Assembly: GCF_025791835.1 (NCBI RefSeq)
Contig: NZ_JAOXLP010000013.1
Span: 66,320 to 130,319, forward strand
Direction: 5' to 3'
DNA length: 64,000 bases
Source: Roseomonas xinghualingensis
GTDB lineage: Bacteria; Pseudomonadota; Alphaproteobacteria; Acetobacterales; Acetobacteraceae
Made by a program: the position numbers and the translations under genes. Numbering within the stretch: the first letter of the stretch is position 1; the number at the start of each line of letters is the position of its first letter. Positions 37,219 to 56,874 of the stretch are shown piece by piece. Below the pieces are notes generated by a model. It searched no databases, was not told the origin of the DNA, and saw only the letters and a program-made list of their open reading frames with translations.

Positions 37219-38235
37219 ATGAATCTCGCCCGCTTCCCACGCATCCGGCTGGGCCACCTGCCTACGCCGCTGGAGCCGATGGAGAACCTGTCGAAGCATC
37301 TCGGCGGGCCGAAGCTCTGGATCAAGCGGGACGATTGCACCGGGCTTTCCACCGGCGGCAACAAGACCCGTAAGCTGGAATACCTGATGGCCGAGGCCCG
37401 CGCGCAGGGCGCCGACACGGTCATCACCCAGGGCGCCACCCAGTCCAACCATGCCCGCCAGACCGCGGCCGCGGCGGCGAAGCTGGGCATGGCCTGCCAC
37501 ATCCTCCTGGAGGACCGCACGGGCTACACGGATGCCGCCTATACCCGCTCCGCCAATGTGATGCTGGACAAGCTGCATGGCGCGCAGGTCTCCCGCCGCC
37601 CGGGCGGCGCGGACATGCAGGCGGAAATGGAGGTGCTGGCCGCGGAACTGCGGAAGTCGGGCAAGCGCCCCTATGTCATTCCCGGGGGCGGTTCCAACCC
37701 CGTAGGTGCCCTTGGCTATGTCGGCGCCGCGCTGGAGCTGGTGGCGCAGGCCGCCGAGATGGGCCTGAGGATCGACCATGTGGTCCATGCCACCGGCAGC
37801 GCCGGCACCCAGGCCGGGCTGGTCGCGGGGCTGGTGGGCCTGAACAGCGGCATTCCCGTGCTCGGCATTGGCGTGCGCGCTCCGCGCGAAAAGCAGGAGG
37901 CCAATGTCCTGGCTCTGGCGCAGCGCACCGCCGATCACCTCGGCCTGCCGAAGGACACGGTGCGCGCCGAGCATGTGCGCGCGAATTGCGACTATGTCGG
38001 CCAGGGCTACGGCATCCCGACCCAGGGTATGGCGGAGGCGGTGAAACTGCTGGCGGAGAAGGAGGGCATCCTTCTCGACCCCGTCTATTCCGGGAAGGGC
38101 ATGGCCGGGTTGATCGACCTGATCGGCAAGGGGCACTTCAAGCCGGAAGAGAACGTGGTCTTCATCCACACCGGCGGCGCTGTCGGCCTCTTTGGCTATC
38201 CGGATGCCTTCGACCTGCCGGCGGATGTGGCCTGA
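37219..38235 (+). CDS. dcyD: D-cysteine desulfhydrase / related PLP lyase
   Basis: A 338-residue type II PLP enzyme of the ACC deaminase family. [14 protein letters not shown] holds the PLP Lys (K49); [15 protein letters not shown] binds the cofactor phosphate/carboxylate, and [12 protein letters not shown] is the Gly loop. DcyD splits D-cysteine to pyruvate, sulfide and ammonia; CuyA (L-cysteate sulfo-lyase) has the same signature and cannot be excluded. It appears to be a single gene converging with the oxidoreductase at 38272. Confidence 0.85.
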
Positions 38236-38271: not shown

Positions 38272-39330
38272 TCAGGCGGGCGCTGCGATGGCCTCGGCCG
38301 TTGCGCGCGGGATGAGAGGATCCTGGCGCCCATAGATCCGGTCCAGCACCTCGGAGACTGTCACCAGCTGTTCGGCGACCGGATCGAAGCGCGTTCCGCC
38401 AGCGAGGCGCAGCGCCCAGCCGGCCGCCGCCCGCCCGCCCCATTCATCGGGCGGCACCGCCAGCGTCTCGCGCGAGGTCCCGTGGAAGCGCTCGGCCGTG
38501 AAGTCGTAGAAGGAGCCGTTCACATTGCGCAGCGCCGCGCCGCCCGAGGTGCCGTGGAAGTCGGCGGCGATCACCGCGTCGCAACCCGCATGGAGGTTCC
38601 AGGAGCAGGCGAGCCGTACCACCGCGCCGGTTTCCAGCTCGATGGTGGCAACCGCGTAGTCCTCCACCCGGTCCGTGCGCCCGGCGAGCGGCTCCCCGCC
38701 CGCGAAGAGCGAGCCCGACACCCGCGCCACCCTGGGGAAGTCCAGCGCCCAGAGGGCGAGGTCCACCAGATGCACCCCCAGGTCCATGACGCAGCCGCCG
38801 CCCGAGAGTGCTGGGTCGCGGAACCATGGCTTGTCCGGGCCATAGGCGTTGTGGAAGACGAGATCGATGGCATAGGGGCTGCCAAGTTCCCCGGCCCGGA
38901 TCGCTTCCCGGATACGGCGCATGCCCTCGGTGAAGCGGTAGGAGAGGTCCACCTCCAGCAGCCGGTCCGCCGCGCGGGCGGCGGCCACCACGGCCCGCAC
39001 CTCCGTCGCCGTGCGGCCCAGCGGCTTCTGGCAGAACACCGCGGCGCCCTGTGTGAGCGCCTGGATGGATTGCGCGGCATGCATCGCGCTGGGGGTGGCG
39101 ATCACCACCCCATCCAGGCCGAGCGACAGCATCTCCTCCAGCGAGTCCACGAGCTTCGCGCCGGGCGCCAGCTTCTGCGCCTCGGCGGCCATCTCGGGCG
39201 AGGGATCGCAGATGGCGGCGGCCTCCGCCGCGCCGGTGGCGAGGATGGCCTGCATGCGGTGGCGGCCGATCCAGCCGACGCCGAGGAAGCCGAGGCGGGG
39301 AGGGCCCTTGCTGGAAATCACAGCCGTCAT
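38272..39330 (-). CDS. Gfo/Idh/MocA family oxidoreductase
   Basis: A 352-residue NAD(P)-dependent sugar or inositol dehydrogenase. RLGFLGVGWIGRHRMQAI is the Rossmann GxGxxG, and CQKPLGRT gives the EKP-like motif (here QKP, with Gln replacing the usual Glu). The middle GGCVMDLGVHLVDLALW is the family's GGG.l.D.GiH motif with the catalytic His. Position at the end of an operon that faces inositol-1-phosphate synthase makes a cyclitol or sugar-nucleotide substrate plausible. It overlaps the upstream gene by 4 nt. Confidence 0.82.
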   Translation of the reverse strand: MTAVISSKGPPRLGFLGVGWIGRHRMQAILATGAAEAAAICDPSPEMAAEAQKLAPGAKLVDSLEEMLSLGLDGVVIATPSAMHAAQSIQALTQGAAVFCQKPLGRTATEVRAVVAAARAADRLLEVDLSYRFTEGMRRIREAIRAGELGSPYAIDLVFHNAYGPDKPWFRDPALSGGGCVMDLGVHLVDLALWALDFPRVARVSGSLFAGGEPLAGRTDRVEDYAVATIELETGAVVRLACSWNLHAGCDAVIAADFHGTSGGAALRNVNGSFYDFTAERFHGTSRETLAVPPDEWGGRAAAGWALRLAGGTRFDPVAEQLVTVSEVLDRIYGRQDPLIPRATAEAIAAPA

Positions 39331-40313
39331 GCGAAGCGCACCACGGCCTTGAGGAAGCCATCGGGCCGGTCGCGCGTGGCATCCAGTGCCGCGTCCAGCC
39401 GTTCCAACGGGAAGTCGTGGGTGAAGAGCGGCCGGGGATCGAAGCGGCCGGCGGTGATCGCCTCCACCGCCTCGCGGATGCCCTGCACATAGATCTTCGG
39501 ATCGCGCTCATGCGCGTTGATCACGTCCAGCCCGCGCCAGTTCCAGAGCCACATGTTCACCTGGCGCGGCCCATCCTGGTGATAGCCGGCGACGATCAGG
39601 CGCCCACGCTCACGGCACAGCTCGGCGGCGAGATCCAGCGGCCATTGCTTGCCCACGGCCTCGATCACCACGTCGCAGAACGTGCCGCCGGTCAGTTCCT
39701 TCACCCGCTCGATGATGCCGTGGTGGTCATCCATCGGGATGGTTTCGGCCGCGCCCATGCCGCGCGCGAGGTCCAGCGAGAAGGGACGGCGGGAGATGGC
39801 GATCACCCGCGCGCCGGCCTCGGTGGCCAGCTTCGTCAGGATGGCGCCAAGGAAGCCGATGCCGATGATGGCCACCGTCTGCCCGGCCTCGATCCCGCTG
39901 CGGCGGAAGATGTTCATGGCGCAGCCCAGCGGCTCGCCAGGAAAGGGCTGATCGCTGAGCGATGCCGGCAGGCGCACGACATTCGCCACATCGGCGATGT
40001 CGTATTCCGCATAGCCGCGATAGGTGAGGGCGGCGACACGGTCGCCCACCGCAACTCCCTCCACGCCCTCGCCCAGCGCATCCACCGCGCCCCAGGCCTC
40101 ATGGCCCAGGTCGCCAGGCTCGGTGGGGAAGCGCATCCAGTCCGGCCCGGCCCAGGGGGTGAGGTTGGAGGCGCAGACGCCGCAGCCTTCCAGGCGCAGC
40201 CGCACCTGCCCCGGCCCGGGCACCGGCCGCGCCACCTCCCACACCTCCATCTGGCCCGGCCCGGTCAGGACCGCGGCCCGCATGCGCTCCGCAGCGGCGG
40301 GCGTCCCACTCAT
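39327..40313 (-). CDS. Zinc-type alcohol dehydrogenase-like oxidoreductase
   Basis: A ~328-residue MDR protein. GCGVCASNLTPW replaces the catalytic-zinc Cys region (usual GxCGTD), GHEAWGAV is the conserved GHE, and IIGIGFLGAILTKLA the NAD-binding loop. The four-Cys structural zinc lobe is missing, as in several sugar/polyol dehydrogenases. Start ATG 40313 has AGGAAAG upstream; ATG 40328 is possible. The substrate is likely a sugar or cyclitol of this locus. Confidence 0.8.
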   Translation of the reverse strand: MSGTPAAAERMRAAVLTGPGQMEVWEVARPVPGPGQVRLRLEGCGVCASNLTPWAGPDWMRFPTEPGDLGHEAWGAVDALGEGVEGVAVGDRVAALTYRGYAEYDIADVANVVRLPASLSDQPFPGEPLGCAMNIFRRSGIEAGQTVAIIGIGFLGAILTKLATEAGARVIAISRRPFSLDLARGMGAAETIPMDDHHGIIERVKELTGGTFCDVVIEAVGKQWPLDLAAELCRERGRLIVAGYHQDGPRQVNMWLWNWRGLDVINAHERDPKIYVQGIREAVEAITAGRFDPRPLFTHDFPLERLDAALDATRDRPDGFLKAVVRFA

Positions 40314-40397
40314 CAGCTCTTTCCTCATACAGCCTCGCCGGTGGCGCGATGGCCACCGGCGATCCGAATCAATCAGAAGCGTCCAGTCCTGGCCGGA

Positions 40398-41309
40398 TCA
40401 GGCTGCGACCACGGCTGCCTTCGCCGGGGCGTAGCGCCGGATCATGGAGGCGCAGAATTCCGCGAATTCCTCCGGCACCTGGGGCGGGCTGGTGTGGTGC
40501 GGCGCGATGCCGCGATGCTCCGGCGTGAAGCAGAAGGTGACGGTGACGTCGAAATCCGCCAGCGCCTCCATCTGCCGGTCGAACCAGTCCAGCGCATTCG
40601 GGCGGAAGCTGTCGGCCCAGGAGAGGCCGGTGCGGAGATAGGTGACGCCCAGCCGCTTCATCCAGGCCACCGCGTCATACAGGCGGTGGTCCTCGTAGTG
40701 GAACCACTGGCACAGGCCCATCTGCGGCGCGTGCTTCACGAAATGCTCCATGGAGGGCTTGGGCGATCCGTCCTCGCGCAGCAGCCCCATGTAGAAATGG
40801 CGGTAGTAGGAGGAGCCCTCGGCCTCGCGGTGGCGCGTGGTGGCGCCCCAGGCCTGCGGCAGGTCGTAGAGGCTGTACCAATGGATGCGCGGCGCCTTGC
40901 CGATCAGCAGCTCGGCGGTGCGGTTGAGGCCCCAGACCTGCACTTCCTCCGCACCGAAGGTGGAGATACCGACTTCCGACACCCAGATGGGCTTGTCGGT
41001 CACCGCGCGGATCTCATCGATCTTCGCCGGCCACTCATCGATCTTCCAGAGGTTCCAGTCGAGCGGGAAGCCGTGCACGGCCACCACATCCACCTCGTCC
41101 AGCACGCCGCGCTCGGACATGTTCACGATGAAGGCCGGATCGATCGGGGAGATGCCGCCCAGCACGCGCGGCAGGTCCGGATTCGCTTCGCGGATCGCGC
41201 GGCCGGCCAGCTTCGCGGTCTCGGCGAACATGGCCCAGCCGGGATCGATCTCAGGGTCCCAATGGGACTTGTTGTTGGGCTCGTTCCAGATCATCGCGGC
41301 TTCGATCAC
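40398..41309 (-). CDS. Beta-xylosidase-like glycosidase with permuted barrel order
   Basis: A 303-residue protein. The acid/base motif IWNEPN is right at the N-terminus (residues 7-12) and the nucleophile motif WVSEVG at 109-114. The elements that normally precede NEPN in GH39-like clan A barrels come afterwards: MGLCQWFHYED (197-207), LGVTYLRTGLSWAD (220-233) and VTFCFTPEHRG (257-267), ending RRYAP. The motif order therefore suggests a circularly permuted TIM barrel. GTG 41309 overlaps the methyltransferase stop by 4 nt; ATG 41294 is the alternative. It has no signal peptide. It may remodel a glycan intermediate or have lost hydrolase activity. Confidence 0.7.
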   Translation of the reverse strand: MIEAAMIWNEPNNKSHWDPEIDPGWAMFAETAKLAGRAIREANPDLPRVLGGISPIDPAFIVNMSERGVLDEVDVVAVHGFPLDWNLWKIDEWPAKIDEIRAVTDKPIWVSEVGISTFGAEEVQVWGLNRTAELLIGKAPRIHWYSLYDLPQAWGATTRHREAEGSSYYRHFYMGLLREDGSPKPSMEHFVKHAPQMGLCQWFHYEDHRLYDAVAWMKRLGVTYLRTGLSWADSFRPNALDWFDRQMEALADFDVTVTFCFTPEHRGIAPHHTSPPQVPEEFAEFCASMIRRYAPAKAAVVAA

Positions 41310-42076
41310 GCGCGCTTCTCCTTCGCGGGATAGGCGGCGCCGGCGCCCCAGGGGGCTTCCACGCGCCGGCAGAGATACACCTCCTGTTCGGGGTGCTCGA
41401 TGATGGCGAAACCGGCCGAGCGGAGCATCGCCTCCGCGCAGGCGGCATTCGGCACCCACCAATTGGTCAGGTCGCCGGTGTAGCGGTGTTCCACGAAATG
41501 CATCTTCGGGAATCCGGGGCGGTTGAAGACTTCCGTTTCCTCGAAGGAGTAGTCCGCCGCCACCGGCTCGATCTCGCGTGAACCGCGCTGCATGGACTGA
41601 AACAGCAGGAGGTCCTTGGCGGCATGCTCATGGATCAGGTCCAGCGCCAGCAAGGGGTGGCGCAGATGATAGAGCACGCCCATGAAGATCACGAGGTCGA
41701 AGCGCTCGCCCAGCGCCGCCACGTCATAGACGGAGAGGTTGCGGAACTCCGCCTCCAGCCCCGTGACCTCGGCGGCCAGCCGCGCCTGGGACAGGTAGCG
41801 GTCATCCGAATCGATGCCCAGCACGCGAGAGGCGCCGCGCCGCTTCATCTCCAGCGAGTAGAAGCCGGCATTGCAGCCGATATCGAGCACCGTCTTGCCG
41901 GTCAGGTCCTGCGGGACCGCATGGGCGAAGCGCTGGAACTTGTTCGCTGGGTAGTCATAGAGAAAGTGATTCGGCGCGGTCTTCACCCCGCCCAGGTCGA
42001 GATTATGGAACCAGTCGCCGAGGGCCTCGACCCGCTTCCGGATCTCATCCTTCGACAGCATCACGGTCTGGCTCAT
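41306..42076 (-). CDS. SAM-dependent methyltransferase (TIGR04290-like)
   Basis: A 256-residue class I methyltransferase. VLDIGCNAGFYSLEMKRRGA is motif I for SAM; FDLVIFMGVLYHLRHPLLAL is motifs II-III. It resembles tRNA-wobble uridine CmoB-like methyltransferases in its FDLVIFMGVLYH segment, but I recall the close family as TIGR04290 (Rta_06860), found in a conserved neighbourhood with glycosyltransferases. It likely O-methylates a sugar or cyclitol. It overlaps genes on both sides by 4 nt. Confidence 0.8.
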   Translation of the reverse strand: MSQTVMLSKDEIRKRVEALGDWFHNLDLGGVKTAPNHFLYDYPANKFQRFAHAVPQDLTGKTVLDIGCNAGFYSLEMKRRGASRVLGIDSDDRYLSQARLAAEVTGLEAEFRNLSVYDVAALGERFDLVIFMGVLYHLRHPLLALDLIHEHAAKDLLLFQSMQRGSREIEPVAADYSFEETEVFNRPGFPKMHFVEHRYTGDLTNWWVPNAACAEAMLRSAGFAIIEHPEQEVYLCRRVEAPWGAGAAYPAKEKRA

Positions 42077-43221
42077 CCCGCCGGTATCTCCCCTGACAGC
42101 GAATGTTGCACGGGGCCGAGCCGCCGCGCCGGCGCCGCATCCAGCCGCGCCAACACCTCCAGCAACTCGTCCACGCGATGCGCGCAGCTGTGCCGCGCGC
42201 GGATCGTCTCCAGCCCGCTTTCCACCAGCGAGCGCCGCAGCCCAGGATCGTCCCGAAGGGTAGAGAGATGGTGCGCCATCTCCACCTCGTCACGCGCCGT
42301 CAGGTAATCCTGGCCAGGACGGAACAACCCCTCGGAATCCCGCCAGGGGGCGGAGACGAGTGGGATGCCGCAGGCCAGCGCCTCGAAGACGCGGATGGTC
42401 GGGATGCCCGGCAGCATCTCCACATAGAAGCGCCGCGGCACATGCACGGTGGCAAGGTGGTGCGCGAAAAGCTCCGGCGCGCGCGCATTGGGCAGCCAGC
42501 CACGATAGCGCACGCCATAACGCTGCAGCATGGCGAGCGCCTCATCGGGGTAGCGCACGCCATAGATGTCGAGCTGCAGGCGGGTGGTCTGCGCCGGCCG
42601 CATAAGGAAGCTTTCCAGCTCCGCCGTGCGTTCGCCATCGCCCCAGTTGCCGATCCAGATCAGCCCCTCGCGCGGGCCTTCCTGCGCGGGCGGCTGAAAG
42701 AGGCGCGTATCCGCCGCCTCATGCCAGACGAAGACACGATCGCCCCATCCCCAGCCGCGATACACCTCGGCCAGGGTGGCACCGAAGGCGAGCACCGCAT
42801 CATAGCCATCCAGGTCGAAACGCCGGATCGCCTCCGGGTCGCTGACCGCGCGGTGATGCGTGTCGTGGAAGAGCAGGGTGAAGGGCGCGCCGCGCCGACG
42901 CATCCGCCCGATGGCGGCGACCAGTTCCGGCTCATTCCATTCATGCACCACCACCACATTGGCGCCGTCCAGTGCCGCCTCCACCTCCTCGAAAGAGGAG
43001 AAGACGCGGGAGTTCAGCTCGGGATAGCTGGCGCGGAAGGCATCCAGCCCCGCCTCGCCATGGTCGCGCAGCAGGTTTTCCAGGCTCCAGGCCCCCTTGG
43101 GCTCCAGGGAGAGCACCTCATGCCCGCGATGCACCAGATCCCGCAGCACGCCGCGCAGGAAATGCGCGTTGCCGTGGTTCCAGCAGGAGGTGAGCGAATG
43201 GGTGAGATAAACGAGCTTCAA
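42073..43221 (-). CDS. Glycosyltransferase, CgeB-like
   Basis: A 382-residue GT-B protein. MKLVYLTHSLTSCWNHGNAH opens the N-terminal fold; the donor-binding part contains GIPTIRVFEALACGIPLVSA, which is the CgeB/GT4-like ExxxxG nucleotide-sugar site. The start codon is TTG (43219-43221) overlapping the upstream stop as TTGA. Two homologous-looking proteins are encoded at 48617-50835 on the other strand, so the locus has three related CgeB-type transferases. Confidence 0.8.
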   Translation of the reverse strand: MKLVYLTHSLTSCWNHGNAHFLRGVLRDLVHRGHEVLSLEPKGAWSLENLLRDHGEAGLDAFRASYPELNSRVFSSFEEVEAALDGANVVVVHEWNEPELVAAIGRMRRRGAPFTLLFHDTHHRAVSDPEAIRRFDLDGYDAVLAFGATLAEVYRGWGWGDRVFVWHEAADTRLFQPPAQEGPREGLIWIGNWGDGERTAELESFLMRPAQTTRLQLDIYGVRYPDEALAMLQRYGVRYRGWLPNARAPELFAHHLATVHVPRRFYVEMLPGIPTIRVFEALACGIPLVSAPWRDSEGLFRPGQDYLTARDEVEMAHHLSTLRDDPGLRRSLVESGLETIRARHSCAHRVDELLEVLARLDAAPARRLGPVQHSLSGEIPAG

Positions 43222-44345
43222 GCGGCGGCAGTCCCCGTCAGCAGCAATGAGCGGTGCACCGCATGCATGGCTTCCGCCATCGCGCCCACGGTGTAGCGCG
43301 CCGCCCTCTCGCGCCCCGCGGCGGCCAGGCGCGAGCGCTCCCCGGCATCCCCCGCCAGGCGCCCGATGGCCTCCGCGGCAGCTGCGTCATCCCGCGCCGG
43401 CACGAAGAGGGCGGCGTCGCCCCATAATTCCCGGAAGGTCGGGATGTCGGACAGCACCAGCGGACAGCCTGCCTGCGCGGCTTCGAGGACGGCAAGGCCA
43501 AAGGGTTCATAGAGGGCCAGCGACACATAGATCGGCGCCTGGGCGAGCCAGCCGGCCAGCGTGCCCTCATCCAGCCACCCCAGGGCGCGCAGATACCGCG
43601 CCTCCACCAGCGTTCCATCCGGCCCATCCAGCGGCCCGGCGGCCAGCACAGGCAGATCCAGCCGCGCCGCCGCGCGATCAAGCGTTTCGAGGTTCTTCCC
43701 GGCATCCCATAGCCGCCCGGCGGTGAAGGCGAAGAGTGGTGGCGCCTTGTCCGGCACGCCGGATGGCGGGGGCAGGGGGGCACGCCCGTTATGAACCACG
43801 CGCGGCAGGCGCGGCAGCGCATAGCGGCGCGCCATCGCCTCGGCCAGTGCATGGCTGGGCACCACCAGCGCTGAAGCGGCCAGGGCACCGCGGCGGACGA
43901 GTTCCGTGCGCCAGGAAAAATCCTCGGGCAGATCTCCGTCGCGCACCGCATCCCACCAGGTGGCGACGCAGGAGTGGGAGACGGCAACGATCGGAACCGG
44001 AAAACCCGCACCTGCCGCATGGGCCGGGCTGTTGAGCTGGACGATGTCCACCCCCGCCTCCCGTGCCAGGGCGGCGAGCGCGACACCGGCCTGCGTCACC
44101 TCCCCTGGCTCATTCGCCAGCCAATCCAGCGGCAGGCCGGTGATCCGAAGCTCAAGCCCCGGAATCCCGGCGGCCTGTGTCATCTGGTCCGGTGTCGGCG
44201 CCGGGCCGAGCACCGCCAGCACCGTCACCACGCCATGGAGGGCAAGCCCCGCCGCCAGATCCAGCGCATAGGTCCAGACACCGCCGGCCGCATCAGCCGT
44301 CATCAGCAACCGAGTGGCGGGAACCCTCTGCGGATCGGCTGTCAC
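43218..44345 (-). CDS. Glycosyltransferase family 4
   Basis: A ~375-residue GT-B enzyme. LLMTADAAGGVWTYALDLA is the acceptor-side Gly loop; the donor site shows FTAGRLWDAGKNL and YEPFGLAVLEAAQAGCPLVL (the EPFGLxxxEA motif of retaining GT4). GTG 44345 overlaps the preceding gene by 4 nt; ATG 44303 is the alternative. It would add a sugar from a nucleotide donor to the product of this locus. Confidence 0.85.
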   Translation of the reverse strand: MTADPQRVPATRLLMTADAAGGVWTYALDLAAGLALHGVVTVLAVLGPAPTPDQMTQAAGIPGLELRITGLPLDWLANEPGEVTQAGVALAALAREAGVDIVQLNSPAHAAGAGFPVPIVAVSHSCVATWWDAVRDGDLPEDFSWRTELVRRGALAASALVVPSHALAEAMARRYALPRLPRVVHNGRAPLPPPSGVPDKAPPLFAFTAGRLWDAGKNLETLDRAAARLDLPVLAAGPLDGPDGTLVEARYLRALGWLDEGTLAGWLAQAPIYVSLALYEPFGLAVLEAAQAGCPLVLSDIPTFRELWGDAALFVPARDDAAAAEAIGRLAGDAGERSRLAAAGRERAARYTVGAMAEAMHAVHRSLLLTGTAAA

Positions 44346-45445
44346 GCGTTGGCCAGTGGCACCGGTGCGTGGAGCACCTCCGGGCCGGCGCGCTCCTGCC
44401 GCAGCCATTGCGCGAGGGCTACGACGCCTTCACGCCATGGCCGTGCCGTACGCAGCCCCAGTTCCTGTGCCGCGCGGCTTGTATCCGAGACGTAGTAGCG
44501 TTGGTCGCCCGCCCGCCAATCGGCGTAGTGTGTCTCTACCGGCTGATTCGTCAGATCTCCGATATGATCGAGCAGCTGGCGCAGGCTGATCGCATTGGCT
44601 GGCCCGCCGCCGAGATTGAAGGCGCGCCCGGAGACGGCATCGATCCTCCGCCAGGCCGCGAGATAGGCTTCCACCGCATCGCCCACATCCATCACGTCCC
44701 GCACCTGACAGCCATCGCCATAGATGCTGACCGGCTCGCCCCGCAGGGCACTGAGGACAAAATGCGCCACCCAGCCCTGATCCTCGGTGCCCATCTGCCG
44801 CTGACCGTAGATACAGCTCATTCGCAGCACGGCTGTTGGCAGGCCGAAAGAGCGGCCGAAATCGAGCACATACTGGTCGGCAGCGCCCTTGGAGCAGCCA
44901 TAGGGCGTGTGGAAGTCGAGCGGCCGGTCCTCCCCGATGCCGCGTGCGCGGATCGCCGGATCGCACGGCACATAGGCATCGCCTTCCAGCTCCAGCGCGA
45001 CATCCGCCAGATCGCCATAAACCTTGTTGGTGCTGGCGAAGATCAGCGGCACCCGGTCACCCCGCCGGCGCAACGCGTCGAGCAGGTTGAAGCTGGCGCC
45101 GAGATTGATCTCGAAGTCCTCACGAGGATCGGCCATGCTGGTCGTGACCGCGACCTGCGCTGCCAGATGGAAGACCGCGCTTGCCTCGGAGGCGGCCGCC
45201 ACCAGGGAACCGGCTTCCCGCACATCGGCAACCACGGCCGAGATCCGCTCCGGATGCCGGCGCTTCAGCCAGTCCAGATTCGACTTCACGCCCGGCCGCA
45301 GCAATGCGTCATAGATGAGGACGTCATGTCCTTCCGCGGCGAGCCGGTCCGCCAGATTGGAGCCGATGAAGCCGGCGCCGCCCGTGACCAGGATCGGCTG
45401 CCGCCCCGTGACGGCCGGAGCGGACGGTGCCGCCTTGTTCGTCAC
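44342..45445 (-). CDS. NAD-dependent sugar epimerase, CDP-paratose 2-epimerase-like
   Basis: A 367-residue extended SDR. ILVTGGAGFIGSNLADRL is the NAD site; ASTNKVYGD matches the STNKVYG sequence of CDP-tyvelose/paratose epimerase (RfbE) rather than the usual SSxxVYG; YGCSKGAADQY holds the catalytic Tyr and Lys. It probably epimerises a nucleotide-activated hexose or deoxyhexose. It begins with GTG 45445 in a GTGA overlap. Confidence 0.82.
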   Translation of the reverse strand: MTNKAAPSAPAVTGRQPILVTGGAGFIGSNLADRLAAEGHDVLIYDALLRPGVKSNLDWLKRRHPERISAVVADVREAGSLVAAASEASAVFHLAAQVAVTTSMADPREDFEINLGASFNLLDALRRRGDRVPLIFASTNKVYGDLADVALELEGDAYVPCDPAIRARGIGEDRPLDFHTPYGCSKGAADQYVLDFGRSFGLPTAVLRMSCIYGQRQMGTEDQGWVAHFVLSALRGEPVSIYGDGCQVRDVMDVGDAVEAYLAAWRRIDAVSGRAFNLGGGPANAISLRQLLDHIGDLTNQPVETHYADWRAGDQRYYVSDTSRAAQELGLRTARPWREGVVALAQWLRQERAGPEVLHAPVPLANA

Positions 45446-46557
45446 GCGACGAGTCCCCGCAGTTCAAGCTCGCTCCGCGCCTGGCTGACGCGGTCCTGTG
45501 CCTGCTGGCGTGCCACCCACTCCGCCAGTTCCGCGAGATCGGCCCGGAAATCGAGATGGCGTGTTTCGTAGCCCAACTCCTGCCGCGCCTTGGTGATGTC
45601 CGGGATATTATGGCGAATGTCGCCAGCGCGGGTCTTGCCGGCGATCTCCGGCGCAAGGCCGGTGCGCCCCATGGCACTGGCCAGTTCGGCCGCCACCTCC
45701 TGCACCGTGCGGTCGATGCCGCTGGCGATATTGTACACCCCGCCTGGCGCCTTCGGATGATCGAGTGCAAGGAGGAAGGCACGTGCCACATCCTCAACGT
45801 GCACAAAGTCGCGCCGCTGCAATCCATCCTCGAAGATCATCGGCGGTTGCCCGTTCTGCAACCGCGCCGCGAAGATCGCGAGAACGCCCGTATAGGGATT
45901 CGAGAGTGCCTGCCCCGCCCCATAGACATTCCACAACCGCAGCGCCACGCCCTCCATTCCATAGGCCGGCGCAACGGTGAGGGTCAGGCGCTCCTGCGTG
46001 AACTTCGTGATGGCATAGACGGAGGCAAGATTCGTCCGCTTCCACTCCGGCGTCGGAACCGGCACCAGCGGTCGGCCCTTTGCATCCAGCGGATCCCAGG
46101 GCGCATCCGGCCCGCTGCGGGGCAGGCGCACCGCATCCTCGACGAGATTGCCGTCAGCGTCCTTGTACAGGCCCTCGCCATAGACGCTCATGGAGGAGGC
46201 AACGACCACGCGCTTCACCGGCTGTTCGATCAGTTGCTGGAACAGCATCGCCGTGCCGCAGTCATTCACCGCGACATACCGGTCGATCGCATACATGCTC
46301 TGCCCGACGCCAACCTCGGCGGCCAGATGAACCACCTTGTCGATGCCCTTCAGGGCACGGCGCACGGCATCGGCATCGCGGACATCGCCCCGCATAACCT
46401 CGACTTCGGAGTCGAGGCCATCGGCGCCACGGTCGGCATGCACCTGCTCGATAAAGCTGTCGAGCACGCGCACATGATCGCCGCGGTCGAGCAAGGCGCG
46501 CGACACATAGCGCCCGATGAAGCCGGCTCCGCCGGTGATCAGGATCGATTCCGCCAA
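45442..46557 (-). CDS. NAD-dependent epimerase/dehydratase (sugar nucleotide)
   Basis: A ~371-residue extended SDR: ILITGGAGFIGRYVSRAL, ASSMSVYGEG and VYAITKFTQE (Tyr-x3-Lys). ATG 46620 gives 25 residues before the Rossmann strand; TTG 46557, with GGAGG 7 nt upstream, starts MAESILITGG like other family members and is preferred. Insertions after the active site (residues ~140-170) distinguish it from GalE. It is first in the minus-strand operon. Confidence 0.8.
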   Translation of the reverse strand: MAESILITGGAGFIGRYVSRALLDRGDHVRVLDSFIEQVHADRGADGLDSEVEVMRGDVRDADAVRRALKGIDKVVHLAAEVGVGQSMYAIDRYVAVNDCGTAMLFQQLIEQPVKRVVVASSMSVYGEGLYKDADGNLVEDAVRLPRSGPDAPWDPLDAKGRPLVPVPTPEWKRTNLASVYAITKFTQERLTLTVAPAYGMEGVALRLWNVYGAGQALSNPYTGVLAIFAARLQNGQPPMIFEDGLQRRDFVHVEDVARAFLLALDHPKAPGGVYNIASGIDRTVQEVAAELASAMGRTGLAPEIAGKTRAGDIRHNIPDITKARQELGYETRHLDFRADLAELAEWVARQQAQDRVSQARSELELRGLVA

Positions 46558-46931
46558 ACGCTTGCCCTCCAGCTCATGCCGAGCCCGACGCCGTCCGGAA
46601 AAGACCGAGAGCGCCCGCATTCACCACCAGGGTGAAGGAAGGCGCGTCTTTTGTCATTTCCGTCCGCCGTTGAGTCACGCCATTTCTTAGCCGTGTCAGC
46701 ATGTTTGAAGAAGAGTGGAGACGACATCACATTTACTTGTAACTAAACCATTATGGCATGCTGCATCCTATCGCTGCATTGAACGCTTGCACCGCGGGCA
46801 GCTAAGTTGATGCGGCTCTGGCGGATTGCCGGACCGGGGGGCAGGAACCATTCTCACTTGATGATCGATCCGCGCTGCGACCTTACCCGTTTTTCATTTT
46901 CCGCGCCCCGGCGGTTGGAAAGCGCCCGCTC
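46558..46931. other. Divergent promoter region of the glycan/inositol locus
   Basis: 374 bp without a gene between the two operons. It is AT-richer at about 46715-46780 (ACATTTACTTGTAACTAAA), where promoters are expected. I see no strong palindrome. Confidence 0.5.
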
Positions 46932-48011
46932 GTGAATCAGAGAACGGTCCGCGTTGCTGTCGTCGGTGTAGGAAACTGTGCTTCTTCCTTCGTGCAAGGG
47001 CTCGCCTATTACCGTGATGCCGCGGCGAATGAGCCGGTTCCGGGGCTGATGAATGTCGAGCTTGGTGGCTACCATGTGCGCGACATCGAGGTGTCTGCGG
47101 CCTTCGATGTGAATGCCGCCAAGGTAGGGCGCGACCTTGCGGATGCCATTCTGGCGCCGCCGAACAATACCCACCAATTCGCCCAGGTCGCTCCCACCGG
47201 CGTCAAAGTGGAGCGGGGCGCGACACTGGATGGAATCGGGCGCTACATGGCCGCCGAGATCCCCGAATCGGATGCCCCCGTCGCCGATGTCGCTGGCATC
47301 CTGGAGTGGTCGCGTACCGATGTGGTCGTCTCCTACCTGCCGGTAGGATCCCAGCGGGCAACGGAATGGTACGCCGAGCAGGCGCTGAAGGCGGGATGCG
47401 CCTTCGTGAACTGCATCCCTGTCTTCATTGCCTCCAATCCTGAATGGCGGAAGCGCTTCGAGGCGCGTGGCCTGCCGATCATCGGGGACGACATCAAGAG
47501 CCAGGTCGGCGCCACCATCGTGCATCGCGTGCTGGCCAACCTGTTCCGTGAGCGTGGTGTGCGGCTGGACCGTACCTACCAGCTGAACTTCGGCGGCAAT
47601 GCCGACTTCCTGAACATGCTGGAACGCGAACGCCTCGAATCGAAGAAGATCTCCAAGACCCAGGCAGTGACGAGCCAGCTTGAGATCCCCCTGCCGGCGC
47701 AGGATGTGCATGTTGGCCCCAGCGACCATGTGCCCTGGCTGACCGATCGCAAATGGGCACAGATCCGGCTGGAGGGTACCGGCTTTGGCGGAATGCCGCT
47801 GAATATCGAACTGAAGCTGGAGGTATGGGATTCGCCCAACTCCGCCGGCATCGTCATCGATGCTGTGCGATGCGCGAAGCTCGGCCTCGATCGTGGCATC
47901 GGCGGCGCACTGTTCGGGCCGTCCAGCTATTTCATGAAGTCACCGCCGCAGCAGTTCCAGGATGGCGAGGCCAGGGAGCGTACATTGCGTTTCGTGGCCG
48001 GTGAGAGTTGA
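46932..48011 (+). CDS. ino1: Inositol-3-phosphate (myo-inositol-1-phosphate) synthase
   Basis: A 359-residue NAD enzyme converting glucose-6-phosphate to L-myo-inositol-1-phosphate. [17 protein letters not shown] is the NAD site; [16 protein letters not shown] and [12 protein letters not shown] carry the conserved Lys and substrate residues; [19 protein letters not shown] is typical of the actinobacterial/archaeal short form. The start codon is GTG. It heads the plus-strand operon and supplies the cyclitol expected in the product. Confidence 0.9.
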
Positions 48012-48020
48012 GGTGGGCCG

Positions 48021-48620
48021 GTGGCCACCACCTTCTTCCTGGTGCGCCATGCCGCGCATGATCGTGTGGGCAGCGTGCTCTGCGGCCGGATGCCAGCAGT
48101 GAATCTCGGTGAACTCGGCCGGCGCCAGGCCGATGCCCTTGCGGATCGCTTGGGGGGGGAACGGATCAGCGCGATCTATACGAGCCCACTGGAACGCGCG
48201 AGGGAGACCGCCGCACCCATTGCCCAGAGGATCGGACTTCATCCGCAGGCCAGTGATCCGATCACCGAGATCGATTTCGGCAGATGGACGGGGCGCTCCT
48301 TCGATTCGCTCGGCTCTGATCCGGATTGGACCCGCTGGAATGAATCGCGCTCCACCGCACGTCCGCCAGGTGGGGAAAGCATGGGCGAGGTGCAGTCCCG
48401 CGTGACCGGGGAATTGAGCCGCCTGCAACAGGATCATCCGGAGGGCCGCATCGTGCTCGTCAGCCACTGTGATGTGATCAAGGCGGCGCTGGCTTCCCAT
48501 CTTAGGTTATCGCTTAACGATCTCGGCCGGTTTGAAATCGCTCCCGCATCCGTGAGCATCCTGGTTGCTTGGGGCAGCGAAGGGAAAGTCCTGGGCATGA
48601 ACGAGGCGGTTGCGTCATGA
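48021..48620 (+). CDS. Histidine phosphatase family protein
   Basis: A 199-residue phosphoglycerate-mutase-like phosphatase. FFLVRHAAH has the RH nucleophile motif, YTSPLERARETA the second Arg, and VSHCDVIKA the second His. It begins at GTG 48021, nine bases after ino1. It could dephosphorylate inositol-1-phosphate, completing inositol formation in the operon, but this is inferred only from position. Confidence 0.85.
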   Translation: MATTFFLVRHAAHDRVGSVLCGRMPAVNLGELGRRQADALADRLGGERISAIYTSPLERARETAAPIAQRIGLHPQASDPITEIDFGRWTGRSFDSLGSDPDWTRWNESRSTARPPGGESMGEVQSRVTGELSRLQQDHPEGRIVLVSHCDVIKAALASHLRLSLNDLGRFEIAPASVSILVAWGSEGKVLGMNEAVAS

Positions 48621-49714
48621 GGATCGCCTTCTACGGATCAAGCCTGCTCTCCTCCTACTGGAATGGTGCCGCCACTTATTATCGTGGCCTCCTGCGCGAT
48701 CTCGCCGCGCGTGGCCATTCCATCATTTTCTATGAACCGGACGCCTTTGATCGTCAGCAGCATCGCGACATCGAGCCGCCGCCCTGGGCCGAGGTGCGCG
48801 TTTATCCTGCAACGGAAGAAGCTGTCCGTGAGGTGATCGCCGAGGCGGTCCGTGCCGATGTGGTGGTGAAGGCAAGCGGCGTCGGCGTGTTTGACGACGT
48901 GCTGATCGAGGGGCTCATCGCCGCCGCGCGCCCCGATGCCATCCGTATCTTCTGGGATGTGGATGCGCCCGCCACCCTCGCGGAGATCGGCGACGCGCCG
49001 GACCATGCGCTACGCCGGGCTCTGCCCGCGTTGAATTTCGTGCTGACCTATGGCGGTGGCCCGCCGGTGGTCGATGCCTATGAAGGACTGGGCGCACGGC
49101 GCTGTATCCCGATCTACAACGCGCTGGATCCCGAGACGCATCACCCGGTGCCGGCGGACCCGCGCTTCACGGCCGACCTCTCCTTCCTCGCCAACCGCCT
49201 GCCGGATCGCGAGACGCGGGTGGAACGCTTCTTCCTGGACGCCGCCGCGCGCCTGCCGGAACGCCGTTTCCTGCTCGGAGGCAATGGCTGGGACGACAAG
49301 CCGATGCCGTCCAATGTGCAGCGAATCGGCCATGTCGGCACGCGCGACCACAACGCCTTCAACACCTCGTCGCTGGCGGTGCTGAACATCGCGCGCGACA
49401 GCATGGCCTCCACCGGTTATTCGCCCGCGACACGCGTCTTCGAGGCGGCGGGCGCCGGCGCCTGCCTGATCACCGATGCTTGGGTCGGGCTCGACCTCTT
49501 CCTGAAGGAGGACGAAGAGGTGCTGGTCGCGCGGGACGGCGCCGAGGTGGCGGCGCATCTGCAAAGCCTTACGCCCGCGCGTGCCAGGGCCATTGGTGAG
49601 GCCGCTCGCGCTCGCATCCTCTCCGAACACACCTATACACGTCGTGGAGCGGAGGTGGACGCACTGCTTCGCCGGGAAGCGGCGCGCATACGCGAAGGGG
49701 GCGTCCCGGCGTGA
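48617..49714 (+). CDS. Glycosyltransferase, CgeB family
   Basis: A 365-residue GT-B-like protein: MRIAFYGSSLLSSYWNGAAT at the N-terminus, LTYGGGPPVVDAYEGLGARR in the middle, and YSPATRVFEAAGAGACLITD, the CgeB donor motif. ATG 48617 overlaps the phosphatase stop (ATGA). It is a paralogue of the next gene and related to that at 42073-43221. Confidence 0.82.
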   Translation: MRIAFYGSSLLSSYWNGAATYYRGLLRDLAARGHSIIFYEPDAFDRQQHRDIEPPPWAEVRVYPATEEAVREVIAEAVRADVVVKASGVGVFDDVLIEGLIAAARPDAIRIFWDVDAPATLAEIGDAPDHALRRALPALNFVLTYGGGPPVVDAYEGLGARRCIPIYNALDPETHHPVPADPRFTADLSFLANRLPDRETRVERFFLDAAARLPERRFLLGGNGWDDKPMPSNVQRIGHVGTRDHNAFNTSSLAVLNIARDSMASTGYSPATRVFEAAGAGACLITDAWVGLDLFLKEDEEVLVARDGAEVAAHLQSLTPARARAIGEAARARILSEHTYTRRGAEVDALLRREAARIREGGVPA

Positions 49715-50835
49715 TGGCGGGCGCACCGCTCCGCATCGTCGTACTCGGACTCAGCCTTTCCTCCTCCTGGGGGAATGGGCACGCAACGACCTTCCGCGCC
49801 CTGCTGCGTTCCTTCGCCGAACGAGGTCATGATGTCCTCTTCCTGGAGCGCGACGTACCCTGGTATGCGCAGAACCGGGACATGCCCTCACCGGATTTCT
49901 GCCGGCTAGAGTTCTACCCCGATCTGGCGGCGCTCGAATCCTGGCGCGATGCCATGGCGCAGGCGGATGCGGTGATCGTTGGCTCCTATGTGCCGGAAGG
50001 CGTGGCTGTCGGCCGCATGGTGCAGGAGACCGCAGGTGGCGTGACCGCCTTCTACGACATCGACACGCCCGTGACCCTGGCCAAGCTGGAACGCGGCGAC
50101 GAGGAGTATCTCTCCCCCGCGCTGATCCCAGGCTATGACCTTTATCTCTCCTTCACGGGCGGCCCGACGCTCGAACGGCTGGAACGGCAATACGGATCGC
50201 CGGCCGCGCGGCAACTCTATTGCTCCGTGGACGCAAAGGCCTATCGCCCGCTTGATCTGCCGCCGCGCTGGGATCTGAGCTATCTCGGCACCTACAGTCC
50301 CGATCGCCAGCCCACTCTGGAGCGCCTGCTGCTGGAACCAGCACGGCGTGCGCCGGAGTTGTGCTTCGCTGTCGCCGGGCCGCAATACCCGGCCGATATC
50401 GAATGGCCTGCCAATGTCGAGCGGATCGAGCATGTGCCGCCCGCCGATCATCCTGCCTTTTACGCGCAGAGCCGTTTCACACTGAACGTCACGCGCGCCG
50501 ACATGATTCGCGCGGGCTACAGCCCCAGTGTGCGGCTGTTCGAGGCGGGCGCCTGCGGCGTGCCGATCATCTCCGACAAGTGGGACGGAATTGACACACT
50601 GCTCCATCCCGATGCGGAGATCATCCTCGCGGATAATGCCGAAGCGGTGCTCCGCGCGTTAACCGACATGCCCGAGGCGCGGCGACGCGAGATGGGGCGG
50701 GTACTGCGCGAACGCGTCCTGGGCGAGCACACCGCGGCTCACCGGGCCGAGGAACTGGAAGGATACTTCCGCAAGGTCCTGGCCAGGCGCGCGGCGGCGC
50801 TCGACCAACCCGCGGATGAACAGGTGACCTCGTGA
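49711..50835 (+). CDS. Glycosyltransferase, CgeB family (second copy)
   Basis: A 374-residue relative of its upstream neighbour: VVLGLSLSSSWGNGHATTFR, LSFTGGPTLERLERQYGSPA, and YSPSVRLFEAGACGVPIISD at the donor site. It starts at GTG 49711 or ATG 49714; the GTG overlaps the previous stop. Tandem CgeB-type enzymes suggest two successive sugar additions. Confidence 0.82.
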   Translation: MMAGAPLRIVVLGLSLSSSWGNGHATTFRALLRSFAERGHDVLFLERDVPWYAQNRDMPSPDFCRLEFYPDLAALESWRDAMAQADAVIVGSYVPEGVAVGRMVQETAGGVTAFYDIDTPVTLAKLERGDEEYLSPALIPGYDLYLSFTGGPTLERLERQYGSPAARQLYCSVDAKAYRPLDLPPRWDLSYLGTYSPDRQPTLERLLLEPARRAPELCFAVAGPQYPADIEWPANVERIEHVPPADHPAFYAQSRFTLNVTRADMIRAGYSPSVRLFEAGACGVPIISDKWDGIDTLLHPDAEIILADNAEAVLRALTDMPEARRREMGRVLRERVLGEHTAAHRAEELEGYFRKVLARRAAALDQPADEQVTS

Positions 50836-51857
50836 GGAACGGCAAGACCAAGCTCGTCATGGTCGTCGGCGGTGCCGGCTTCCTCGGTTCCCATCTCTGC
50901 GATCTGCTCATCAGTGAAGGCAAGCAGGTCATCTGCGTCGACAACTTCCAGACGGGGCAGCGCGACAATCTGCGGCACCTGCAGCGCGATCCCCGCTTCG
51001 ACATGATTGAGGCCGATATTGCCGAGCCGCTCCCGGCTTCGCTTTCCTCCGAGCGCCTGCATTTCAGCGAGATCTACAATATGGCCTGTGCCGCCTCGCC
51101 GCGGCATTACCAGGCCGATCCCGAGCACACGATGCTCACCTGCGTTCTCGGCACGCGCTCGCTTTTGCGGCTGGCCGAGGCGAATGGCGCGCGCTTCCTC
51201 CAGGCCTCCACCAGTGAGATCTATGGCGATCCGGAGACGCATCCGCAGCGAGAAGACTATTGGGGCCATGTAAACCCGACTGGGCCGCGCGCCTGCTATG
51301 ACGAAGGCAAGCGCGCCGCTGAGACTCTTGCCTTTGACTTCATCCGAGCCGGACGCGCGGAGGTGCGCGTGGCACGTATCTTCAACACCTATGGCCCGCG
51401 CATGTGCGCCGATGATGGCCGCGTCGTTTCCAACGTCATCTGCCAGGCGCTGGCGAGCGAGGACATCACCATCTATGGCGATGGCAGCCAGACCCGTTCC
51501 TTCTGCTATGTCGATGATCTGGTGGATGGCCTCGCACGGCTGATGGCCTGCGGGACTGAGCCGCCGGGCGCGGTGAATCTGGGAAATCCGGTGGAACTGA
51601 CGGTGCTCGATCTCGCGGAACGCGTGCTGACCCTCACCGGTTCCCGGTCGCGCATCGTGCACCGCCCTCTGCCGGTGGATGATCCCCGCCGCCGCCGCCC
51701 TGATATCTCCCGCGCGAAGGCTCTGCTCGGCTGGGTGCCGCGCGTGTCGCTTCAGGCCGGGTTGGAGGCGACGGTCGCCTGGTTCCGGCGCGAGATGGCC
51801 CATCCGGTGCTGCCGACGCAGCCTGCGCTGCCAGCCACCGCCAGCCGCGCCGACTGA
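50832..51857 (+). CDS. UDP-glucuronate decarboxylase (UDP-xylose synthase)-like SDR
   Basis: A 341-residue extended SDR. VVGGAGFLGSHLCDLLI is the NAD site; QASTSEIYGDPETHPQ and the segment NPTGPRACYDEGKRAAETL follow the UXS signature closely, including the catalytic Tyr and Lys and the Arg that fixes the carboxylate. It should convert UDP-glucuronate to UDP-xylose, giving the donor for pentosyl transfer and fitting the xylosidase-like gene opposite. The start is GTG 50832 in a GTGA overlap. Confidence 0.87.
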   Translation: MRNGKTKLVMVVGGAGFLGSHLCDLLISEGKQVICVDNFQTGQRDNLRHLQRDPRFDMIEADIAEPLPASLSSERLHFSEIYNMACAASPRHYQADPEHTMLTCVLGTRSLLRLAEANGARFLQASTSEIYGDPETHPQREDYWGHVNPTGPRACYDEGKRAAETLAFDFIRAGRAEVRVARIFNTYGPRMCADDGRVVSNVICQALASEDITIYGDGSQTRSFCYVDDLVDGLARLMACGTEPPGAVNLGNPVELTVLDLAERVLTLTGSRSRIVHRPLPVDDPRRRRPDISRAKALLGWVPRVSLQAGLEATVAWFRREMAHPVLPTQPALPATASRAD

Positions 51858-51892
51858 GGCGCCAAGAGCCGCACCTCATCCGGGGCTCCGCA

Positions 51893-53647
51893 ATGCTGGT
51901 CTATGGCGATGCCCCACGCCGCGAGGATCCGCGCCGCAAGCTTGCGGAGCTTGCCAATGCACTCCGCGAACTCGCCAGCCTGCCGCCTGGAATCTGTCGC
52001 CATTCCGCCCTGGCTGCCGCGCTGATCGAGGCTGGGGAACTCGCGCAGGGCATCGCGGATGCTGATTTCGCCGAACGGGGCGTGGATGATTTGGCACCGG
52101 CACCGGAAGCGGCCATGGCGCTGCTGGTGCGGATCGCGGAGGCGCTGTGCCTCTCCTGGAATACCGGCTTCACCCAGCTGGGCGCCTGGCCCGAGGCCGA
52201 GTGGGCCGCCTTGGCCACCACGCCACTGCCCGGTTCCATTCGGACCAAGCGGGCGGAGGGCTTTGCCTATTACGCCCTCTATCCCGAGGTCTATGCGATG
52301 GCGGCGGCTTCCCTGCCATCTGGCGTGCCGCTGCGGGTGATCGGCCTTCGCTCCATCGGGGTGACGCTGGCGGCGATGGTGGCCGCCCGGCTTGGCGGAG
52401 CGCCACCCCGCAGCCTGCGCCCGGTGGGTCATCCCTTCCGGCGCAAGCTGGCGGTGTCGGACGCCTTGGCTGCGGATCTCCTCGCCGGTCCCGAAGCGCA
52501 TTTCGCGGTGGTGGATGAAGGGCCCGGCCTGTCCGGCAGCAGCTTTGGCGCCGTGATCGAGTTCCTGGAAGGGCGCGGGGTGCCGCTGTCGCGGATCCAT
52601 CTTCTTCCTGGCCATGGGGACGAGCCTGGATCGCAGGCCAGTCCGGAATTGCGTGCGCGCTGGGCGCAGGCGCAACGCCATTCCGCCTCCTTCGAGGACC
52701 TCCTCCTCCATGCCGTGCGGCCGGAACACCGGCTGGAAAGTTGGGCGGCGGATTTGCTGGGGGCGCCGGACAGGCCGCTGGAGGACATTTCGGGTGGCGC
52801 CTGGCGTCGGTTGCGCAGCGCGGAGGTGCCCTGGCCACCCATCCATCCCTTCATGGAGCGCCGGAAGTTCCTGTTTCATCGGGGCGGCACGGCCTGGCTG
52901 CTCAAATTCGCGGGGCTTGGCCACCGTGGCGAGAAGCAGGCGGAGCATGCCCGATTGCTTCACGCGGCCGGCTTCACGCCGGAGGTCGCGGGCTTCCGGC
53001 ACGGCTTCCTGATTGAGCGCTGGATGGAGGAGGCGCGTCCCCTCGATCCGGCCCGGTATGATCGGAGCCGGCTGATCGCGCATCTGGGCCGCTATCTCGC
53101 ATTCCGGGCGCGCAGCTTGCCGGCGGGGCCGGAAGGTGGCGCCTCGGCAGAGGCACTTTGGGAAATGGCCCGCCACAACACCGCCCAGGCATTGGGCCAG
53201 GAACTGGCGGCACGGATGGACCGGTGGAAGCCCTCCCTTCCGTCCTTCGACGCGCAGATCCGGTGGGTCTGGACCGACAACCGCCTGCATGCCTGGGAAT
53301 GGCTGGTGCTTCCCGATGGCCGTCTGCTCAAGACAGATGCGGTGGACCATGCGGCCGCGCATGACCTGATCGGCTGCCAGGACATCGCCTGGGATGTGGC
53401 GGGAGCGGTGGTGGAACTTGGCCTGTCCTCCGCCGAGCAGGACCGGCTGGGCCATATCATCGGACAGGAGAGCGGCCGGGCCGTGGATCCGGAACTCCTG
53501 GCCTTCCTTACGCCCTGCTACCTGGCGTTCCAGCTTGGCTATCACGCCATGGCTGCGGATGCGTCTGGTGGTGAGGAGGTAGCGCGGGCGGGCGATGCCG
53601 CCGCCCGTTATGCCGAAGCCCTGAAAGCCGCGCTGCTGGCCGGCTGA
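51893..53647 (+). CDS. Phosphoribosyltransferase-kinase fusion protein of unknown function
   Basis: A 584-residue protein with two apparent domains. Residues ~130-235 look like a type I phosphoribosyltransferase: GLRSIGVTLAAMV then VVDEGPGLSGSSFGAV (206-221), the PRPP loop position. Residues ~320-510 look like an aminoglycoside-phosphotransferase-type kinase: LLKFAGLG (K338), FLIERWMEE hinge, WTDNRLHAWEW and KTDAVDH (D482) as catalytic and metal sites. The key kinase HxDxxxxN motif is changed. It lies 35 bp after the UXS gene and probably belongs to the operon. It could make a ribosylated or phosphorylated intermediate. No family name can be assigned. Confidence 0.6.
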   Translation: MLVYGDAPRREDPRRKLAELANALRELASLPPGICRHSALAAALIEAGELAQGIADADFAERGVDDLAPAPEAAMALLVRIAEALCLSWNTGFTQLGAWPEAEWAALATTPLPGSIRTKRAEGFAYYALYPEVYAMAAASLPSGVPLRVIGLRSIGVTLAAMVAARLGGAPPRSLRPVGHPFRRKLAVSDALAADLLAGPEAHFAVVDEGPGLSGSSFGAVIEFLEGRGVPLSRIHLLPGHGDEPGSQASPELRARWAQAQRHSASFEDLLLHAVRPEHRLESWAADLLGAPDRPLEDISGGAWRRLRSAEVPWPPIHPFMERRKFLFHRGGTAWLLKFAGLGHRGEKQAEHARLLHAAGFTPEVAGFRHGFLIERWMEEARPLDPARYDRSRLIAHLGRYLAFRARSLPAGPEGGASAEALWEMARHNTAQALGQELAARMDRWKPSLPSFDAQIRWVWTDNRLHAWEWLVLPDGRLLKTDAVDHAAAHDLIGCQDIAWDVAGAVVELGLSSAEQDRLGHIIGQESGRAVDPELLAFLTPCYLAFQLGYHAMAADASGGEEVARAGDAAARYAEALKAALLAG

Positions 53648-56591: not shown

Positions 56592-56874
56592 CGGGCCGAA
56601 TACGCTCCATGCGAAGGGGAAGGCACCTGCGTGATAGCGCGCGGCTCGGCGCCGGGTCCAATCGGTGGGCGGAAGCGCGGCGGCCGCCGGAACCGATCCT
56701 GGCATGATCCGGTGGGCCGCTTCGGCACGCCGGATGATTCGCCCGAAAGGGCTCAGGACCGGGCCGGATCTTGTGAACGGTCTTTCTTCAGGATCCGCAA
56801 CGTTATGCGTCCGCCGGGGTTAATGGCCGGCGCCTTTCGACCGACGGGGTGCGTTTGTCGTTAGGGTTTTCACG

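Follow-up and report, generated by a model that had tools for sequence, protein, structure and literature searches.

Here we describe a block of fourteen adjoining genes, at positions 38,272 to 53,647 of a 64,000-nucleotide stretch of the genome of Roseomonas xinghualingensis (the whole stretch is called the window below), which is a conserved, co-inherited system rather than a set of chance neighbours. The block combines a methyltransferase of family TIGR04290, four glycosyltransferases, a UDP-glucuronate decarboxylase (UDP-xylose synthase, UXS), two sugar-nucleotide epimerases (SDR7 and SDR8), two dehydrogenases, an inositol-3-phosphate synthase (Ino1), a histidine phosphatase (HisP) and a circularly permuted glycosidase. 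With about even confidence, we read it as a system dedicated to a methylated, pentose-containing oligosaccharide or glycoside of the cytoplasm, which in sphingomonads and rhizobia would be switched on by EcfG (RpoE2), the sigma factor of the general stress response. The product would most likely protect cells against drying, salt or stationary phase, either remaining inside them or being loosely exported. The general stress regulons of alphaproteobacteria comprise long lists of genes, for which few end products are known.

Results

Co-occurrence of the genes

In a scan of 385 genomes of the class, the methyltransferase was found in 16, and one of the glycosyltransferases (GT_c, E <= 1e-60) was found in the identical 16 (Fisher p 1e-28, kinship not corrected for). 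The permuted glycosidase is present in 8 of the 385, every one of them within these 16 locus genomes. A scan with the methyltransferase gave 80 named loci, the best 80 of 86 confirmed. Since these loci extend at most 10 kb in either direction, and 18 of them are no longer than 20 kb in total, genes at the edge of the system are undercounted, and UXS is seen in merely two of the ten Roseomonas-type loci because they end short of the edge genes. The gene set recurs in Roseomonas, Azospirillum, Sphingomonas and Paracoccus, partial sets recur in Myxococcus, Acidobacteria and Verrucomicrobia, and tblastn finds the whole set on pSymB of Sinorhizobium meliloti 1021 (about 242 to 261 kb of NC_003078, locus L210), where the operon running from the SDR8 homologue to the methyltransferase gene occupies about 242 to 251 kb.

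The genes form two modules, the first comprising SDR8, SDR7, an optional B12 radical SAM gene, the GT4-type transferase, three more transferases and UXS, and the second comprising Ino1, HisP, the methyltransferase and the permuted glycosidase. The zinc-dependent (ADH) and Gfo/Idh dehydrogenases are additions, found in about six-tenths of the named loci, while a nucleotidyltransferase occurs in 10 and an extra transferase in 9 of the 80. In one genome (G348) the modules lie about 450 kb apart and still co-occur, and GT_c, which is absent from 23 of the 80 methyltransferase loci, is encoded elsewhere in the genome in 14 of the 15 genomes tried. These two observations and the identical 16-genome distribution contradict the notion of unrelated neighbours in a gene-rich region, which we find scarcely credible. 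A first-pass annotation, made from the letters of the window, had proposed a single functional locus, and the co-inheritance supports it: the genes do co-occur in other genomes.

On plasmid p1-AD2 of Roseomonas mucosa the whole cluster has transposase genes flanking both sides, and the methyltransferase is found on 132 plasmid records, 66 of them from Sinorhizobium.

Stress promoters upstream of related operons

The strict EcfG motif GGAAC-N16/17-CGTT occurs 23 times upstream of the operons against 0.52 expected, about 45-fold over a background that includes coding DNA, at 22 of 98 loci. A relaxed form gave 63 hits in 231 core upstream segments of alphaproteobacterial loci against 11 in 353 other upstream segments, at 47 of 86 loci; both figures count hits rather than segments, and the segments are defined slightly differently in the strict and relaxed counts. 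No relaxed hit was found in the core segments of the 11 myxobacterial, acidobacterial, verrucomicrobial, gemmatimonad and Ramlibacter loci, and an unclassified metagenome-assembled genome (L035) has two strict hits. A looser form, GGAAC-N16/17-nGTT, lies at most 150 bp upstream of four of the five first genes on S. meliloti pSymB and of all three on Rhizobium etli p42b, where 0.02 to 0.03 are expected per segment. These motifs agree with published EcfG motifs which, in the available portions of the papers, read GGAAC-N17-20-GTT in S. melonis (PMC6599016) and GGAAC-N16-CGTT in both R. etli (PMC3892343) and S. granuli (PMC7083833). Table 1 of the S. melonis paper, as far as it was available, lists topoisomerase IB and Ku as EcfG-dependent and also includes glycosyltransferase genes, which are not equated with genes of the locus (PMC6599016).

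Stress genes were likewise found beside the cluster. Among 18 cluster stretches from 15 genomes, there are four with topoisomerase IB, two with Ku, two with LigD, five with DUF892 and one with OtsA, and none of these was found in 20 control stretches from 7 of the 15 genomes; a neighbouring SDR gene occurs in 6 of the 18 against 3 of the 20. Because the probes came out of these same cluster stretches, and a single genus accounts for three of the four topoisomerases, the comparison counts as supporting evidence and no more. In the 95 loci of at least 8 kb, topoisomerase IB occurs in 5, DUF892 in 11, the SDR in 9 and DUF1003 in 22. On the Tistrella plasmid pTM1 (L212:1771-13950), a sigma-70 family sigma gene stands just upstream of the operon, a topoisomerase IB gene stands inside it, and Ku and LigD stand just past it.

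The system resembles a part of the EcfG/PhyR/NepR regulon in that many sphingomonads and two rhizobia have the motif before their operons, and in that the window's genome has NepR, beside an apparent ECF sigma gene (read by eye) in a locus with no clear local motif; it differs in that the core upstream segments of the Roseomonas group are without the motif. For the window's copy and its Roseomonas relatives, stress control would be an extrapolation from those relatives that carry the motif. A by-eye reading of GGAAC-N17-CGAT in the window's promoter was seen only there and in R. harenae, and was not kept. The blocks ATCAACTTAGCT, CGATCAA and ACAAGAAAATGTGATG are common, with variants, to most of 11 Roseomonas-type divergent promoters.

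The permuted glycosidase and its unpermuted twin

The window's glycosidase starts at 41,309 rather than 41,462, has its N-terminus at VIEAAMIWNEPNN and carries the part with presumed strands 1 to 3 at its C-terminus. When the permuted sequence is doubled, it gives one contiguous match of 137 bits, where the single copy gives two of 98 and 37 bits, and the permutation named in the first-pass annotation is by this test genuine. In some relatives SDR7 bears an N-terminal, unpermuted glycosidase domain: it is fused in frame before SDR7 in G015, G095 and G159, with presumed strands 1 to 3 first (strands read by eye), and long frames stand at the same place in R. etli and in Tistrella, the Tistrella-type locus L137 being cut at its end. 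The presumed catalytic glutamates E10 and E112, which would follow strands 4 and 7 as placed by eye, are invariant in 29 sequences.

Six of the 16 locus genomes have only the unpermuted form and six only the permuted form. G348 has the permuted form and an unpermuted copy without visible catalytic motifs, G205 has the permuted form and a copy truncated by the contig end, perhaps intact, and neither form was found in G071 and G137, which are fragmented genomes, 82 and 83% complete. Six of the eight locus genomes without the permuted form therefore have the unpermuted domain; of the two plasmid records compared, p42b of R. etli carries the unpermuted form and pSymB of S. meliloti the permuted one. 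That one form usually substitutes for the other suggests a needed step. At L141:3834-4736 there is a glycosidase-SDR7 fusion in which neither catalytic motif was seen, in a genome that also has the permuted enzyme.

By sequence, the nearest solved relative of the glycosidase profile is PslG (6e-7), the hydrolase encoded in the locus for the Psl exopolysaccharide; the profile of the unpermuted twin matched no chain of the PDB at 0.01. The window's enzyme is alike to PslG/GH39-type glycosidases of clan GH-A in this match and in its invariant pair of presumed catalytic glutamates, and differs in that its barrel order is permuted relative to its own twin and in being probably intracellular. A place of action inside the cell is suggested by relatives in which the domain is joined to an NAD-type epimerase, and by the lack of a hydrophobic N-terminus in a crude hydropathy scan.

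The inositol branch

Ino1 (PF01658, E <= 1e-10) is found in 36 of the 385 genomes: in 8 of the 16 with the locus against 28 of the 369 without it (p 2e-5), and, among the 16, in 7 of the 8 with the permuted glycosidase against 1 of the 8 without the permuted form (p 0.01). Inositol would seem to be a feature of one version of the pathway, the one found in the window. The first-pass annotation had called this an inositol locus, which is right for the window, where Ino1 is real, but describes a lineage-specific trait; with Ino1 in just half of the locus genomes, a universal inositol requirement is rejected.

The window's Ino1 matches 1gr0 (3e-146), a solved inositol-3-phosphate synthase that we take to be the enzyme of Mycobacterium tuberculosis, and scores 537 bits against TIGR03450, under its cut-off of 638. 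The start of the mycothiol pathway (Ino1, MshA) is alike in its actinobacterial-type Ino1 and its MSMEG_4193-like phosphatase; besides the Ino1 score, the difference lies in the GT4-type transferase, with 24.5 bits against the 462.5 of the MshA equivalog cut-off. No transferase reaches that cut-off, and a mycothiol-like pathway was rejected on this ground; models for MshB, MshC and MshD are not among the matches listed for the window's proteins.

Ino1 also matches the cyclitol-phosphate synthase 6k96, and the Gfo/Idh enzyme is related to DgpA and to 6jw6 ("Dehydrogenase"), which we assume to be GenD2 of gentamicin synthesis. Such relatives would fit a small diffusible natural product, perhaps an aminocyclitol-like, methylated pseudo-oligosaccharide, yet we consider this improbable: the aminotransferase that flanks the block is found in none of the 80 loci, family scans recognised no resistance or efflux gene in the window's block, and presence across phyla together with stress promoters in relatives seems unlike most antibiotic clusters.

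Gene families and flanking genes

The fourteen open reading frames stand in two divergent operons, 38,272 to 46,620 on the reverse strand and 46,932 to 53,647 on the forward strand, where the first-pass annotation had drawn them, and nearly all of its family labels agree with the NCBIfam and Pfam scans, including TIGR04290, whose cut-off the methyltransferase passes (Table 1). Of the three transferases that it called CgeB-like, all have PF13524; CgeB is its own label, and the scans give PF13524 only. Its phosphoribosyltransferase-kinase fusion found no backing, as the protein has no match in NCBIfam (E 0.001) or Pfam (E 5), and the PDB searches returned one weak, apparently unrelated chain each and nothing credible; the phosphoribosyltransferase label is the motif VVDEGPGLSGSS read by eye. 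This protein is conserved from Roseomonas to Myxococcus.

The genes on either side are not members of the system. The class III aminotransferase that had been suggested to aminate the product (53,730 to 54,986) is real by Pfam, and was rejected, being found in none of the 80 loci; the same count excludes an amidase (55,128 to 56,705) and CuyA, a D-cysteate sulfo-lyase above its NCBIfam cut-off, just outside the block (37,219 to 38,235, forward strand). A PAS/HWE-family histidine kinase lies at 35,569 to 37,122 on the forward strand, with CuyA between it and the block.

Table 1. Genes of the block, with their support and their occurrence among the 80 named loci. PRTase, phosphoribosyltransferase; NDP, nucleoside diphosphate.
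Feature	Coordinates	Strand	Support and occurrence
Gfo/Idh/MocA dehydrogenase	38272..39330	-	Top models inositol 2-dehydrogenase and sugar 3-dehydrogenases, all below cut-off; 52/80
Zn-dependent dehydrogenase (ADH)	39327..40328	-	TDH / scyllo-inosose dehydrogenase-like, below cut-offs; 49/80
Circularly permuted clan GH-A-like glycosidase, 303 aa	40398..41309	-	Invariant E10 (WNEP) and E112; 75/80
TIGR04290 SAM methyltransferase, marker gene of the system	41306..42076	-	386 bits against 300; 16 of 385 class genomes
Glycosyltransferase PF13524 (GT_a)	42073..43221	-	Pfam; 58/80
GT4-type glycosyltransferase; actual start possibly more internal	43218..44408	-	Pfam; 60/80
NDP-sugar 2-epimerase-like SDR (SDR7)	44342..45445	-	CDP-tyvelose 2-epimerase relative, E 2.5e-76; 60/80
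NDP-sugar epimerase (SDR8)	45442..46620	-	Nearest solved: epimerase/dehydratase, MoeE5, UDP-glucose 4-epimerase; 61/80
Divergent promoter region	46621..46931		No strict EcfG motif; short blocks common to most of 11 Roseomonas-type sequences
Inositol-3-phosphate synthase (Ino1), actinobacterial type	46932..48011	+	PF01658, 123 against 27 bits; 46/80
Histidine phosphatase (HisP), candidate inositol-phosphate phosphatase	48021..48620	+	MSMEG_4193-like, below cut-off; 55/80
Glycosyltransferase PF13524 (GT_c)	48617..49714	+	Same 16 genomes as the methyltransferase; 57/80
Glycosyltransferase PF13524 (GT_d)	49711..50835	+	55/80
UDP-glucuronate decarboxylase (UXS)	50832..51857	+	UXS1 match, E 2e-102; 28/80, many loci ending before UXS
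PRTase-like and kinase-like protein, read by eye	51893..53647	+	No library match; 16/80 and S. meliloti pSymB

Discussion

From the gene families, their linkage, the motifs in relatives and the conserved residues, all of which are observed, we infer substrates, an order of steps, a product and a role. UXS would supply UDP-xylose, and the two epimerases would provide a 2-epimer (mannose-like) and a 4-epimer of NDP-sugars. In the window's lineage, Ino1 and the histidine phosphatase would yield myo-inositol as an acceptor or building block. The two dehydrogenases may alter stereochemistry by way of a keto intermediate, the four transferases would add sugars sequentially, and the TIGR04290 enzyme would cap the product by O-methylation, while the glycosidase, probably cytoplasmic, would trim or recycle it.

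A cytoplasmic protectant is preferred because no conserved export or polymerisation gene was seen and because the glycosidase is probably intracellular. The main rival is an exported surface glycan, such as a capsule, a minor exopolysaccharide or a glycolipid head group, whose flippase or exporter is encoded elsewhere, and this we regard as a serious possibility held at clearly less than even confidence. Family scans of the window's block recognised no exporter, flippase, polymerase, synthase or initiating sugar-phosphate transferase; in the copies of R. etli, Tistrella and R. mucosa, whose gene tables are incomplete, none of these is listed either. The fusion of the glycosidase to an NAD-type epimerase in relatives also speaks against the surface glycan, and no characterised lipopolysaccharide or capsule pathway was recognised. 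The rival is favoured by the kinship of the glycosidase with PslG and by a GT9-like gene in 28 of the 80 loci. On pSymB there are presumably several polysaccharide clusters of unknown product.

Several observations weigh against the cytoplasmic, stress-switched product. A pyruvyl transferase (15 of the 80 loci) and an FrhB-like gene (17 of the 80), confined among the 80 to sphingomonad-group and Paracoccus loci and also adjoining the pSymB block, fit a surface glycan, and an ABC exporter of the MsbA/glucan type lies within the Myxococcus copy; weaker ABC matches (29 to 37%) lie in or near L131, L133, L139, L140 and L210. A crude hydropathy scan gives peaks of 2.03 for the GT4-type transferase, 1.82 for ADH and 1.69 for UXS, values that soluble Rossmann proteins can reach, and the GT4 peak leaves a membrane link possible. 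Ino1 is missing in half of the locus genomes. Among the promoters, some relaxed hits are a single near-palindromic site counted both ways, and related species are not independent. The window's own divergent promoter has no EcfG motif, with three strict matches elsewhere in the window and none upstream of the block; the motif was also not found in the core upstream segments of 10 Roseomonas-type, 4 Azospirillum and 2 Alsobacter loci, and Tistrella and R. mucosa each lacked it at both of the first genes tested. The earlier proposal of a cytoplasmic glycoside made without flippase, polymerase or export gene in the block therefore stands in part: the absence of such genes holds for the window and for the listed genes of the three copies named above, with Myxococcus as the exception, and the glycosidase is probably intracellular, while the genes for a pyruvyl transferase and an FrhB-like protein in relatives, and the exporter in Myxococcus, count against it. 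That annotation, partly supported as an interpretation, did not mention the EcfG motif upstream of related operons, the glycosidase's unpermuted twin or the far-apart modules that still co-occur.

Parts of this neighbourhood have been noticed earlier, since the models TIGR04290 and TIGR04295 ("B12_rSAM_oligo", B12 radical SAM) exist; both describe hypothetical equivalogs and name no product. The radical SAM copy of Azospirillum passes TIGR04295, and no radical SAM gene was found in the window's block, in the 10 Roseomonas-type loci or in the 48 sphingomonad-group loci. In open-licence PubMed Central, no paper containing the term TIGR04290 was found and, among the matches listed, none describing the cluster; the cluster was not found named in the available portions of PMC6599016, PMC7083833, PMC3892343, PMC6180224, PMC2912261, PMC12239276, PMC8877191 and PMC3164672.

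A more specific reading of the cytoplasmic product, that it is a methylated inositol/pentose oligosaccharide of the alphaproteobacterial general stress response, serving as a desiccation protectant and recycled by the permuted intracellular glycosidase, is rather unlikely. The galactosyl-cyclitols of drying seeds offer an analogy, as a plant counterpart of such a protectant. The glycosidase itself is a natural example, supported by its distribution, of a circularly permuted enzyme replacing its unpermuted twin. As for the system as a whole, many sphingomonads and two rhizobia have the stress promoter motif at this block of about fourteen genes, and because it is complete in S. meliloti 1021, a strain with good genetics, its product can be sought directly.

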